This document shows positions 26,011 through 62,446 of a DNA stretch of 64,000 nt, piece after piece (the first letter of the stretch is position 1; every line of letters begins with the position of its first letter). Source of the stretch: Dehalococcoidia bacterium. GTDB taxonomy: Bacteria; Chloroflexota; Dehalococcoidia; CAUJGQ01. Under the pieces are notes generated by a model. It was not told the origin of the DNA, ran no database searches, and was given only the letters and a program-made list of their open reading frames with translations. Location of the stretch: contig DATGEL010000041.1 of assembly GCA_035310145.1 (NCBI GenBank), positions 1-64,000 of the forward strand, written 5' to 3'. The translations under genes were made by a program, and so were the position numbers.

Positions 26011-26565
26011 TCAGGCGAAAAATTCGGCAACGGCGCAGGAGAAGCCGGGCAGCACCGGCTCCGCATCGATTGTCTCCTCCTCCGTATAGACGCGGGGGTG
26101 CGCCAATTCTCGATAGGCGACGACATGCCGCGACAGTGGGTAGACGACCCAGACGAGGCGCACGCCCGCCGCCAGCCATTGCGCCACCTTCTGCTGGATC
26201 CGACCCGCCCGATCACCGGGCGAAACAACTTCAACGACCAGGTCCGGGGCTATCTCCGGGTACCCAGGGATCGATCGATCAGGCGGAAGACGTGCGCTGC
26301 TGATAAAGGCGACATCGGGGCCACGCACGGTGTCCGGATCGCGCTTGAGGATGATGCCGGGATCCCCGACCGCGACCTGTCCCAGTCGGTTGGCTCGAAC
26401 GTACACGGCGATCAGGAGACCAACAGTAGATGTGGTATGGCCGTGCTCCCAGCCAGGCGGGGGTGTCATCTCCTGCAGCTCTCCCTCGATTAGCTCAACG
26501 TAGGCATCACAATCGTCCATCTCGAAAAGTTCTTCGGCCGTTATCGGCTTCTTTGTCGTGGCCAT
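26011..26565 (-). CDS. Uma2 family (DUF820) PD-(D/E)XK nuclease-like protein
   Basis: The 184-residue protein starts ITAEELFEMDDCDAYVELIEGEL and has GPDVAFIS, then DLVVEVVSPGDRAGRIQQKVAQWLAAGVRLVWVVYP. The Asp, Glu and Lys of these blocks form the restriction-endonuclease-like active site of the Uma2 family. Members are widely duplicated in cyanobacteria and Chloroflexota and their role is still unclear. A TACACT box lies 30 bases upstream on the minus strand. It is divergent from the dehydrogenase at 26706. Confidence 0.88.
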   Translation of the reverse strand: MATTKKPITAEELFEMDDCDAYVELIEGELQEMTPPPGWEHGHTTSTVGLLIAVYVRANRLGQVAVGDPGIILKRDPDTVRGPDVAFISSARLPPDRSIPGYPEIAPDLVVEVVSPGDRAGRIQQKVAQWLAAGVRLVWVVYPLSRHVVAYRELAHPRVYTEEETIDAEPVLPGFSCAVAEFFA

Positions 26566-32251: not shown

Positions 32252-32499
32252 GCGATTCACCGGGCTGGGATCGAGCTGGGATCGGAGCGCACGGCGGGGC
32301 TCCACGAAGCCAGCTAGGCTTCTTGACGTAGTGTACACCCGCCGCGCGCTCTTCCGCATGACGCGCTTGGGACGATTCCAGCGCGGACGCCGTCTGCACA
32401 GGCGATCGGCGTGTGCCGACACCACGGCCGGCTGAGCCGTCGGCCGGCACGGAACGCTTACGGTTGCTCCGCGCCGCTGGCTTGCGCGCCAATGAGCAG

Positions 32500-34830
32500 G
32501 TGAGGCCATGCCCGCGGGTCCGCCTGAGCGCCGGCGCGCGCGGCGCCGCGCTACTTCTATCGCTTGTGCTGCTCGCGTCGAGTGCCGCGGGCGCGGGCAG
32601 GGCAAACGCGCACGCCGTGCTCCTGCGCTCGTCGCCCGCGCAGAACGCCCACCTGCAAAGCGCACCGACGTCGGTTCAGCTCTTCTTCAGCGAGGCGCTC
32701 GACCGCCACGGCAGCAGCATTCGCCTGCTGGGCAACACCGGTGCGCCGGTGGCCGGCGGCGCCGGCTTTGCGAGCGATCCAAGCGAGATGGACCTCTCGC
32801 TGCCGGCGCTGCAGCCGGGCTTCTTCGTCGTCGCCTGGACCACCGTCTCCGCCGTCGACGGGCACCGGCTGCAAGGCTCGTTCCCCTTCGTGCTGCTGAA
32901 CCCCGATGGCAGCACACCGAGCGGCGCCATCGCTGCTTTGAGCGCGCCTGCGCTCGATCCGGGGCCGCCGCCGTTCGATAGCGCCCTGCGCGCCCTGCTG
33001 CTGCTGGCATTGATGGGAATGACGGGCGGGGGCGCGCTGGCGCTGTTTGCGCTCCTGCCGGCGGCGAACGATGCGGCAGGCAGCGATCGGCCCGGAGAGG
33101 GCGCTGAAGCGCCTGCCCTGCGCCGGGCGGCCCGCCTCAGCCTCTGGAGCGGCGCGCTGGTGGCGCTGGCGAGCGCGGCGGCGCTGCTGCGCCAGGCCAC
33201 CCAGCTCGGCGGCCTGGCGCGGTTCGGGGACGCGGTGCAGTCGCGTGTGGGCTGGCTGGCGCTGTTGCGCATCGTCGCGGCGCTGGTTGTTCTGCTCGTC
33301 GCGCGATCATTGCTCCTTCGTCCTCGCTCCGTACCGCGCCCTCGCCTGCGCTGGTGGCTTGTCTGGCTGCCGGCGCTGGCGGCGCAGCTGACGATGTCAC
33401 TGGCCAGCCACGGCGCGGCGCGTGACGGCGCCGGTTGGGCGGCGCCGGCCGACTTCGTGCATCTGCTGGCGGCCTCGCTGTGGATCGGCTCGCTCGTGCA
33501 GCTTCCCTGGCTGCTGCACGACCTGCGGCGCAACTCCGCTCCGGCAACGCGAGCGTTCATGGCGGCGGCGCTCGATCGCTTCTCTTCGCTGGCCGCGCTC
33601 AGCGTCGGCGCGCTGATTCTCACCGGCCTGTTCAACGCCACGGTCGAGGTCGCCTCACCGCGCAACCTCGGTAGCACGAGCTACGGCAACACGTTGATCA
33701 TCAAGTTGGTGCTGGCGGCGCTGCTTTTTGCCGTGGCGCTCGTGAACGCCGCCTGGCTGGCGCCGCGCCTGCGCCAAACGCTCGGCGGCGGCAAATCCGG
33801 CGCTGCCGCCCGGACATTGCGCCGGACCGCGGCGCTGGAAGCCGCGCTCGGCGTGGCGGTCGTCTGCGTCACCGCTGCCCTGGTTTGGCTGGTGCCCGCG
33901 CGCGACGCTGCGGCGGGTAAGCTCGCGCGGCTCCAGCCCGGAGCGAGCGCCAGCTCGGTCTACCGCAACACTGCGCCCGCGGGTGACCTCACCGCGGCGC
34001 TGTCCGTATCGCCGAACCGCCCGGGAGAGAACGCGTTGCGGGTACAGTTGACCGGCCCGGATGTGGCCGGCATCAGCCGGGTGCAGTTTCGCTTCCAGCC
34101 GCCCGACACGCAGCTTGGACCTTCGTCTGCCTACGCGCAAGCGCAGGGCGGCGGTGTGTACTCGGCGTCCGTCGCGAACCTGAGCACGTTCGGCCGCTGG
34201 CAAATTACCGTGAACGTGCGGCGCGGCGGCCACGACGACGTGAACGGCGCCTTCACGGTGGAAGTGCCGAACGTTGCGGGCCTCGCGCTCGCGTCGCCGG
34301 CCGGCAACCGCGATCTCTGGACCTTTCCCGGCCGCGGCATCAGCGCCGACCAGGCACTCGGCTTCGTTCTCGTGTTTGCTGGTGTCGTGCTTTACCGCGC
34401 GCGGCGCTCGCTGGCACGGTACGGCAGGGGAATCGGCCTGGCGGGTACGTCGCTCGCCGCGCTGTCGTTCGTGGGCGGCGCGATGCTCTTCTTCGCGGTG
34501 CATAGCCACGGCACAACCGGCACGGCGCCGGTTTTGACCAACCCGGTCCCGGGCGACGAGCGCTCGCTGCGTTCGGGCGCCGCGCTCTATGCCGCAAACT
34601 GCGCCGTCTGTCACGGCGTCAGCGGCCACGGCGACGGGCCCCAGGCGGCGTCGCTGAACCCGAAGCCTTTCGACCTGACTGTGCACGCGGGCCTGCATCC
34701 GGATTACCAGCTCTTCGATTGGATCAGCAACGGCATCGCCGGCACCGCAATGCCGGCGTGGAAAAGCCAGCTCGACAAGCGGCAGCGCTGGGACCTGGTG
34801 AACTACCTGCGCACGCTGTCCACCAACTGA
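32500..34830 (+). CDS. CopC-CopD copper protein fused to a C-terminal cytochrome c domain
   Basis: The protein has 776 residues from GTG 32500 (GTG 32413 is an alternative). A signal peptide ends ...GRANA, so the mature protein would begin HAVLLRSSP. The mature N-terminal His and the later VDGH match the CopC Cu(II) histidine-brace site. Residues ~38-135 are CopC, followed by a CopD-type multi-helix membrane domain, an extracytoplasmic beta domain, more helices (YcnJ-like layout), and then a cytochrome c domain with heme motif CAVCH at 701-705 and a likely axial Met in GTAMPAW (~751). It probably handles copper outside the membrane and carries electrons. The three-part fusion in one chain is uncommon. 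Confidence 0.88.
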   Translation: MRPCPRVRLSAGARGAALLLSLVLLASSAAGAGRANAHAVLLRSSPAQNAHLQSAPTSVQLFFSEALDRHGSSIRLLGNTGAPVAGGAGFASDPSEMDLSLPALQPGFFVVAWTTVSAVDGHRLQGSFPFVLLNPDGSTPSGAIAALSAPALDPGPPPFDSALRALLLLALMGMTGGGALALFALLPAANDAAGSDRPGEGAEAPALRRAARLSLWSGALVALASAAALLRQATQLGGLARFGDAVQSRVGWLALLRIVAALVVLLVARSLLLRPRSVPRPRLRWWLVWLPALAAQLTMSLASHGAARDGAGWAAPADFVHLLAASLWIGSLVQLPWLLHDLRRNSAPATRAFMAAALDRFSSLAALSVGALILTGLFNATVEVASPRNLGSTSYGNTLIIKLVLAALLFAVALVNAAWLAPRLRQTLGGGKSGAAARTLRRTAALEAALGVAVVCVTAALVWLVPARDAAAGKLARLQPGASASSVYRNTAPAGDLTAALSVSPNRPGENALRVQLTGPDVAGISRVQFRFQPPDTQLGPSSAYAQAQGGGVYSASVANLSTFGRWQITVNVRRGGHDDVNGAFTVEVPNVAGLALASPAGNRDLWTFPGRGISADQALGFVLVFAGVVLYRARRSLARYGRGIGLAGTSLAALSFVGGAMLFFAVHSHGTTGTAPVLTNPVPGDERSLRSGAALYAANCAVCHGVSGHGDGPQAASLNPKPFDLTVHAGLHPDYQLFDWISNGIAGTAMPAWKSQLDKRQRWDLVNYLRTLSTN

Positions 34831-60418: not shown

Positions 60419-60445
60419 CTCATACCGGCACGACAGGATTAGTTG

Positions 60446-62446
60446 ATGCGAAGCGTGGCGCGATGGCCGGTCGGGCGACTGGTGCTGCTGGGCTCGGTAC
60501 TGCTGACCGTGTTGCTGGCGGGTCATGCCTTGCCGCGCGCTGCCCTCGCTGCGTCTGGCGCGGGAGGGAACACCGGTCCCGTTGCTTCCGTCCGCACCGT
60601 GCTCGCCACGCCGCCGACGGCCAACAACGACAGTTACACCACGCCCGAAAACGTGGCGCTCTTCGTACCGGCCCCCGGCGTACTCGCCAACGACAGCTTC
60701 ACCGCCGGCGACGCCATCCAGGTGGTTTTTCGCGCCCTGCCACTGCACGGGTCCGGCAGCGTCGGCTTTGATGGCAGCGTCGCCTACTTTCCCAACGCCG
60801 GCTTCGTCGGCGTCGACACAATGCAGTACAACATCTTCGACGCCACGACCAACAGCAGCTCGGCGTTTGCGACCGTTTCGATCACCGTCACGGCCACGCC
60901 GCTCGTTGCCGTGAACGACAGCGGCAGCGTCACCGCCGGCGGCACACTGAGCGTGGCCGCGCCGGGCGTGCTCGCCAACGATGCTGCCCCCTTCGGCGAT
61001 ACGCTGACCGCCGTGCTTGTCACCGGCCCGGCGCACGGCGCGCTCACCCTGAACGCCGACGGCAGCTATAGCTACACGCCGGCGATCACGTTTCAGGGCG
61101 CCGACGGCTTCAGCTACCGGATCCACGATGCAACGAGCAATCTGGAGTCGAACGTAGCGACGGTGACGCTGACCGTGGCGGCGAATCCGTTGCAGGGCGG
61201 CGTCTCCCAGCCCTCCGCACCGGCGTCTGGACCGTTCGCCTACGTTGCTAACGGCGTCGACAACACGGTCTCCGTGATCGACACCAGCACAAACCGAGTC
61301 GTCGCCACCGTACCGGTCGGGCTGGCGCCGCAGGGCGTGGCGGTGAACCTGGCGGGAACGCGCGTTTATGTCACGAACGCCGGCGACAACACGGTTTCGG
61401 TGATTGATGCGAGCGCGAACAAGGTCGTCGCCACTGTGAACGTCGGGAGGTTGCCACTCGGCATCGCCGTGAACCCGGCGGGGACGCGCGTCTACGTCGC
61501 CAACTTTGCCGACAACACGGTTTCCGTGATCGACGCCGGGACGAACTCGGCTATCGCGACGCTGCCCGTCGGGGCGGCGCCGGTGGGCGTGGTGGTCAAT
61601 CCGGCCGGAACCCGTGTGTACGTAAGCTCGGAGATCGGCAACACCGTCGCCGTAATCGATACCGGTTCGAACCAGGTGATCGCCACTGTGCCGGTCAACA
61701 GCTTCCCCATCGGCGTCGCTATGAGCCCCAGCGGCGCCCGTCTCTATGTAGTCACCGGCCGCAGCAATTCGGTTGCGGTGATCGACACCAGCACGAACGC
61801 CGTGGTCGCCAGCTTGCCGGCGGGACAAGTTCCTGTGGCGGTCGTCGCGAATCCCGCCGGCACCCGTCTCTACGTCACCGACGCCGGCAGCGACCGCGTC
61901 TCCGTGATCGATATCGCCAGCGGCAGCATCCTCGCCAGCGTGCCGGTGGGGCTGACGCCGATCGGCCTGGCCATCACACCCGACGGCGCCTCGGTCTACG
62001 TCGCCAATTCCGACAACAGCAGCGTATCGGTGATCGATACGCGCACAAACACCGTTGCGGCAACGGTCCTGGTCGGCAGCGGCGCCACGGCGTTCGGGCA
62101 GTTCATCCGGCCCGGCGTTCCGGGCGCGCCCTTCGGAGTGGTGCCGCCGCCGCAGCAGCAGCCGGCGCCGGCGCCGCCGGTGATCCCGATTCCTCTCTTC
62201 TCCGTGTCGGTGACGGTGCAGGGCTGCGGCAACGTCACGCCGCCGGGCGGCGGCGGGCCTCACCTGTTCGGCGACACCGTGACGCTGCAGGCCGTGCCCT
62301 GCGCCGGCAGCAGCTTTGTCGGCTGGGCAGGCGGTCCCTGCAGTGGCACGGCGATCAACCCGTGCGCGGTGGTTGTGCCGCCCTCCAACCTGGCGATCAC
62401 CGCGATCTTCCGGCCGCAGCTCAAAAGCCGAGTCCCCGGTCTTTGA
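60446..62446 (+). CDS. Secreted surface protein: two cadherin/VCBS-like domains, seven YVTN propeller repeats and a C-terminal InlB-like domain
   Basis: The protein has 666 residues. The signal peptide ends ...ARAALAAS. Two ~90-residue Ig-like/cadherin-type domains begin [12 protein letters not shown] and [11 protein letters not shown], each with PGVLANDS. Seven ~42-residue beta-propeller repeats follow ([27 protein letters not shown]...NPAGTRV), enough for one closed seven-bladed YVTN propeller. After a Pro-rich linker comes a Cys-containing InlB-type repeat ([13 protein letters not shown]...GWAGGPCSG). It is probably exported and attached to the cell surface or shed, where it binds ligands or surfaces. 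No anchor motif such as LPxTG is seen. Confidence 0.85.

Follow-up and report, generated by a model that had tools for sequence, protein, structure and literature searches.

The protein closest to the one described here is YcnJ of Bacillus subtilis, which has the same order of CopC, CopD and YtkA domains (the last only YtkA-like here), a histidine brace in CopC and a membrane-embedded CopD with conserved His, but whose published descriptions stop at CopC-CopD-YtkA and include no cytochrome c (PMC13344008, PMC12362106). YcnJ supplies copper to both heme-copper oxidases of B. subtilis, its YtkA domain contributing in the case of Cta, and the supply to Qox is lost when CopC (H24A) or CopD (H295A) is mutated (PMC13344008). 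No reductase is known to accompany YcnJ, and the two most recent papers on it name the place and manner of the change of the copper oxidation state in CopD-type importers, and whether copper is reduced en route at all, as an open question (PMC12362106, PMC13344008).

Further systems resemble our protein in single aspects. Cytochrome c552 (CytC552) of Thioalkalivibrio paradoxus (PDB 7o9u, 9vr0) has the same cytochrome fold, the Met ligand and two His residues (His83 and His87, equivalent to His758 and His762 here), but it is a soluble, separate protein, and its partner is a three-copper enzyme and not a transporter. It takes electrons from this copper-dependent thiocyanate dehydrogenase, with an Em near +160 mV, and a docking model proposes His83 as the electron step from the copper of the dehydrogenase to the heme (PMC9456337); copCD genes are located near the gene of the dehydrogenase (PMC5328954). 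In the flavocytochrome c-CopC complex of the same organism (5n1t), CopC stands beside a c-type heme as in our protein, but the complex is a sulfide dehydrogenase made of separate chains and has no CopD. Cytochrome c is likewise joined to a metal permease in the cytochrome c/FTR1 fusions of Cupriavidus and others, where, however, an iron permease takes the place of CopD, the heme domain lies towards the N-terminus and the His pair is missing; related cytochrome c-FTR1 fusions were seen on proteobacterial plasmids (L136:5620-7548, L137:3608-5548), adjoining metal-resistance genes. CtiP of Corynebacterium glutamicum, finally, joins CopD to CtaG, a module tied to the copper supply of the oxidase (PMC9145763), but contains neither CopC nor heme. 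No account of the four-domain protein was found in open-licence PMC full texts. Its parts are all known, the first three domains being YcnJ-like.

The window, i.e. the whole stretch of 64,000 nucleotides analysed, belongs to a Dehalococcoidia bacterium of the Chloroflexota (assembly GCA_035310145.1, contig DATGEL010000041.1, positions 1 to 64,000). It contains a single open frame along which Pfam recognises CopC, CopD, a YtkA-like domain (slightly under the family's cut-off) and cytochrome c in this order (Table 1). In an AlphaFold2 (AF2) model of the fusion, based on 59 sequences (pLDDT 86.7, pTM 0.81), eight helices correspondingly separate the first beta domain from the second, and a helix pair leads on to the cytochrome fold. 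The sequence-only reading of this DNA had placed CopC, CopD, a second beta domain and a cytochrome c on one polypeptide, which is borne out, but had overlooked the two helices in front of the cytochrome. With ten membrane helices in the model, the CopC domain, the YtkA-like domain and the cytochrome would all be situated on the outer side. The start codon is uncertain, GTG 32500 or one nearby being the likeliest; residues 1-29 of the frame show no conservation among relatives, and the choice has no effect on the mature end.

Table 1. Features of the fusion gene (window positions; residues counted from the first GTG)
Feature	Position	Strand	Basis and details
Whole ORF	32413..34830	+	805 aa from first GTG, 776 aa from GTG 32500; CopC-CopD-YtkA-like-2TM-cytochrome c
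Signal peptide (residues 30-66)	32500..32610	+	cleavage between ANA and HAV; hydrophobic core; start codon uncertain
CopC domain (67-160)	32611..32892	+	Pfam; PDB 5icu, 9c14; putative ligands His67 (32611), Asp149 (32857), His151 (32863)
CopD, 8 transmembrane helices (187-490)	32971..33882	+	Pfam, NCBIfam, AF2; invariant His333, Asp347, His350, Glu476
YtkA-like beta-sandwich (517-618)	33961..34266	+	PF13115, CrdA/FetP fold; no conserved His, Met, Cys
Two transmembrane helices (645-699)	34345..34509	+	AF2 model, hydropathy
Cytochrome c domain (709-803)	34537..34821	+	CAVCH 34600-34614, His758 34684, His762 34696, Met780 34750

The first beta domain is matched by the Pfam CopC model (residues 67-160, E 1e-16), and structure comparison (Foldseek, VIA-align) pairs it with the CopC of PDB 5icu (Z 16.0) and with the CopC domain of YcnJ (9c14, Z 14.3). 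Cleavage of the signal peptide is predicted after ANA66, where the hydrophobic core ends, which makes His67 the mature N-terminus; small residues in keeping with the -3/-1 rule precede the site, and His is the first mature residue, in 59 of 59 aligned relatives. The sequence-only reading would have been refuted by a cleavage site leaving no N-terminal His; the predicted site leaves one. The remaining CopC ligands are supplied by VDGH (residues 148-151), and His67, Asp149 and His151 are identical in all 59 sequences, so that both elements of the copper brace named in the sequence-only reading, the terminal His and the VDGH motif, were recovered, and, as in YcnJ, the brace sits at the predicted mature N-terminus. 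In PfCopC, whose ligands are the same, Cu(II) resists reduction by ascorbate; the protein shows no redox cycling and is inactive on cellulose (PMC7529816).

The CopD domain is recognised by Pfam in its second half (residues 385-490, E 1e-20, above the cut-off), while the NCBIfam CopD model aligns with residues 191-495 at 116 bits, which is below its equivalog cut-off. The four residues His333, Asp347, His350 and Glu476 are identical in 59/59 aligned sequences; Escherichia coli YebZ has H135, H151, H154 and E270 at the four ligand positions, His333 aligning with H135 and His350 with H154, so that most of these ligands are common to both. The protein would thus share with YcnJ a CopD with the conserved His of copper uptake, as judged from the alignment; H295 of YcnJ may correspond to His333 or to His350. 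The helices of CopD also superimpose on subunit A of cytochrome bd (Z 19.8, rmsd 4.6 over 297 residues), which is a likeness of fold only, and the fold of the eight helices is common to the membrane subunit of alternative complex III as well. A model of CopD alone, made without alignment, reached a pLDDT of 57 and was not used.

The second beta domain matches PF13115 weakly (residues 522-600, E 1e-4, 23.1 bits against a cut-off of 25.9), and its modelled structure resembles CrdA (Z 12.9) and FetP (Z 11.2). Metal binding by this YtkA-like domain was considered and rejected, conserved His, Met or Cys residues being absent among the aligned relatives. The chain does not end here but continues with a helix pair and a cytochrome c, which makes the protein a variant and not a plain YcnJ.

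The C-terminal domain has the predicted heme site and fold of a class I cytochrome c (Pfam, residues 719-803, E 1e-13), with CAVCH at residues 730-734 and Met780 as the likely axial ligand, in agreement with what had been read from the sequence; CxxCH and Met780 are both kept in 52 of the 59 aligned relatives, and the host genome carries genes for cytochrome c assembly. The nearest structure is CytC552 of T. paradoxus (9vr0, Z 16.9, rmsd 1.4; 41-43% identity), with whose His83 and His87 the residues His758 and His762 align. This pair is kept in 47-48 of the 59 fusions, and none of five aligned stand-alone cytochromes of the class has it. Seven fusions of an Anaerolineae type (L079, L084, L085, L097, L098, L101, L107) lack CxxCH and the axial Met but retain all copper ligands, and they form one clade in the CopC-CopD tree as well as in the cytochrome tree. 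Since the heme site was lost in one clade in which every copper ligand was kept, the heme is not essential to the scaffold, which says that it is an addition to the putative copper function and not its core. A single Cys of the motif survives in these heme-less proteins, and another conserved Cys has arisen close to where the Met used to be (LPxC or SPC); in five loci a TIR-like gene directly follows a fusion of this type.

A second full-length copy (46% identity) is located on another contig of the same genome, and, together with dozens of relatives, it excludes a chance join or an assembly error. A third paralogue (L122:4867-7755, G000:C137) joins CopC-CopD to a beta propeller similar to virginiamycin B lyase. 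A phylogenetic profile of the exact fusion had been suggested with the original reading; matches spanning CopC to cytochrome c occur in 31 of the 148 genomes of the class and in at least 60 of 400 genomes sampled across the phylum, the hosts including Tepidiforma flava, Thermalbibacter longus, SAR202 and Anaerolineae. These relatives were found by an alignment-based search, a single-sequence scan of genome contigs having found none. In many other genomes of the phylum the match stops before the cytochrome, hence the YcnJ-like core also exists alone. Many of the smaller clades, too, are common to the trees of the CopC-CopD part and of the cytochrome, which joint inheritance would lead one to expect; the two parts appear to have been inherited together.

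Genes for copper chaperones and for heme-copper oxidase are associated with the fusion at the level of loci and of genomes, respectively. Sco and PCuAC are chaperones of CuA assembly; one Anaerolineales locus has their genes directly downstream of the fusion, while a Nitrospinota locus has them upstream of a split-off cytochrome with its helices. COX1 is present in 31/31 fusion-bearing genomes of the class versus 98/148 overall (hypergeometric p of 7e-7 for 30 genomes and 7e-8 for 34, uncorrected for kinship and genome incompleteness), and in the host genome a Sco gene and a COX1 gene lie some 2-3 kb apart. For the cupric reductase CcoG (ccoG_rdxA_fixG, TIGR02745) not one of the 148 genomes of the class gave a score above the cut-off, and the host, window included, gave no match.

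Additional secreted or copper-related proteins are encoded beside many relatives. In 33 loci the fusion is immediately preceded, on its own strand, by a separate gene for CopC, and in one Dehalococcoidia group a WD40-like propeller lipoprotein is inserted between the two (L076:6928-7932 and 18 other loci). A small secreted family without Pfam assignment, with HE at the mature N-terminus and a VVGFLNEPA motif, is found in 28 loci (for example, L072:6495-7166, L123:1400-2140), its gene immediately preceding the fusion in those loci whose gene order was inspected; a relationship of this upstream AHE family to CopC or YtkA-like proteins was rejected, profile comparison matching neither. Behind the paralogue in the present genome come genes for a His-containing lipoprotein, for two CopC proteins and for an ABC ATPase. 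A Rokubacteria chain (L105:1537-3582) consists of CopD, cytochrome c and an AhpC/TSA thioredoxin-like part without CxxC, and a separate CopC gene adjoins it.

Copper handling by the fusion is well supported, given that the ligands of CopC and CopD are invariant in 59/59 and that the scaffold is that of YcnJ. The electron transfer coupled to it, which the sequence-only reading had suggested, is plausible, the heme domain belonging to the subfamily of CytC552, which accepts electrons from a copper enzyme; the loss of the heme site in one clade speaks against it. As the fusion adds a heme to the YcnJ scaffold, we propose that it acquires copper for oxidase biogenesis and that heme and copper exchange electrons. 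A role as a copper-acquisition scaffold is very probable and one in oxidase biogenesis reasonably probable, import and oxidase support both being argued by analogy with B. subtilis; whether the heme exchanges electrons with copper could go either way, and an exchange in the reducing direction is rather doubtful. As a whole, this explanation (YcnJ-like acquisition with its own heme, electron exchange and oxidase support) is put forward tentatively and falls somewhat short of an even chance. In its favour are, besides the ligands and the domain order, the COX1 association, the neighbouring CopC, Sco and PCuAC genes, the likeness to CytC552 with its His pair, the apparent joint inheritance of the two parts, the lack of a CcoG match over the cut-off in the class and the cytochrome c assembly genes of the host; against it count the clade that lost the heme site, the isolated position of the window copy and the sub-threshold score of the YtkA-like domain.

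The histidine brace of CopC would capture Cu(II) outside the membrane and CopC would hand the ion over to CopD at its outer face (His333/Asp347/His350), from where CopD would move copper inward or onto oxidase assembly factors, to the benefit of the heme-copper oxidases. The tethered cytochrome c, fed by the respiratory chain, would swap an electron with the copper when this reaches the entry site of CopD or has passed it, the likeliest outcome being the conversion of Cu(II) to Cu(I). Reduction is favoured because Cu(II) is the form present outside and Cu(I) the form used in the cytosol; since the Em of CytC552, about +160 mV (PMC9456337), is too high for Cu(II) held by CopC, which withstands even ascorbate (PMC7529816), it would have to take place on CopD. 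If so, the protein would be comparable to CcoG, which is dedicated to copper reduction for oxidase assembly but is an iron-sulfur protein unrelated to the fusion. Carried further, the fusion might be a self-contained redox-coupled importer, in which an electron passes between heme c and copper on its way from CopC to CopD, so that transport and valence change are united in one polypeptide, and the CopD helices, with their fold of cytochrome bd subunit A, might carry electrons too; we consider this possible but on balance unlikely, and if true, it would cover the valence-change step that is unknown for YcnJ. A natural fusion of importer and heme c, with a sister clade lacking the heme site only, would allow a direct test in one protein, and offers a testable role for proteins which annotation tends to label copper resistance protein or cytochrome c.

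Electrons might also flow in the reverse direction, the heme taking them from Cu(I) while CopC traps the Cu(II) formed and the terminal oxidase receives them, i.e. a cuprous oxidase within an importer, comparable to Fet3/Ftr1 for iron. CopC binds only Cu(II), and very tightly, and PfCopC-Cu(II) resists ascorbate (PMC7529816), so that oxidation of Cu(I) would be downhill at the CopC site; CytC552, too, accepts electrons from copper (PMC9456337), and distant relatives of the cytochrome are joined to FTR1, whose known relatives move oxidised metal. These FTR1-fused cytochromes, however, lack the His pair, external copper is mostly Cu(II) under air, and it is Cu(I) that is needed in the cytosol, which makes the reverse direction improbable.

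Alternatively, the cytochrome might have no contact with copper and either dock the scaffold to cytochrome oxidase or feed the oxidase with electrons as a membrane-bound cytochrome c, CuA being loaded in place. The presence of COX1 in every fusion-bearing genome of the class, the Sco and PCuAC genes adjoining relatives and the service of the B. subtilis YtkA family in CuA assembly (PMC13344008) would fit; yet the fusion mostly lies outside the oxidase gene cluster, with COX1 nearby in the locus of one relative only, and no reason would be given for the His pair, which recurs in CytC552, an acceptor of electrons from copper. We regard such a role as having a low probability.

Copper resistance by sequestration or export, a frequent annotation of CopC and CopD, which were originally described from copper-resistance operons, could be brought into line with the separate CopC genes adjoining the fusion, but is very unlikely in view of the COX1 association, of the uptake function of YcnJ and YebZ (PMC13344008) and of the neighbouring genes, among which Pfam checks revealed neither an efflux ATPase nor a multicopper oxidase. 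Oxidation of a copper-bound substrate had been the second option of the sequence-only reading. Such an activity would be monooxygenase-like, the heme supplying the electrons, and recalls some LPMO systems in its combination of an N-terminal histidine brace and a heme domain, but is highly unlikely, Asp149 occupying the place of the third ligand as in CopC and PfCopC being devoid of redox cycling and of activity on cellulose (PMC7529816). A system of the thiocyanate dehydrogenase type was considered as well, on account of the likeness to CytC552 and the copCD neighbours of its partner, and rejected, Pfam checks of the genes of the window showing nothing of the kind.

The copy in the window is preceded by a gene for a GGDEF protein and followed by one for a LysM protein, each on the opposite strand, with acyl-CoA dehydrogenases beyond; copper or oxidase genes were not seen beside it in Pfam checks of the neighbours. 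Between positions 26430 and 38754, three acyl-CoA dehydrogenase genes and two genes of luciferase-like monooxygenases are found near the fusion. Further along the window, at 60443-62446, a protein with Ig/cadherin-like repeats, a propeller of the YNCE/lactonase type and an InlB-type repeat is encoded.
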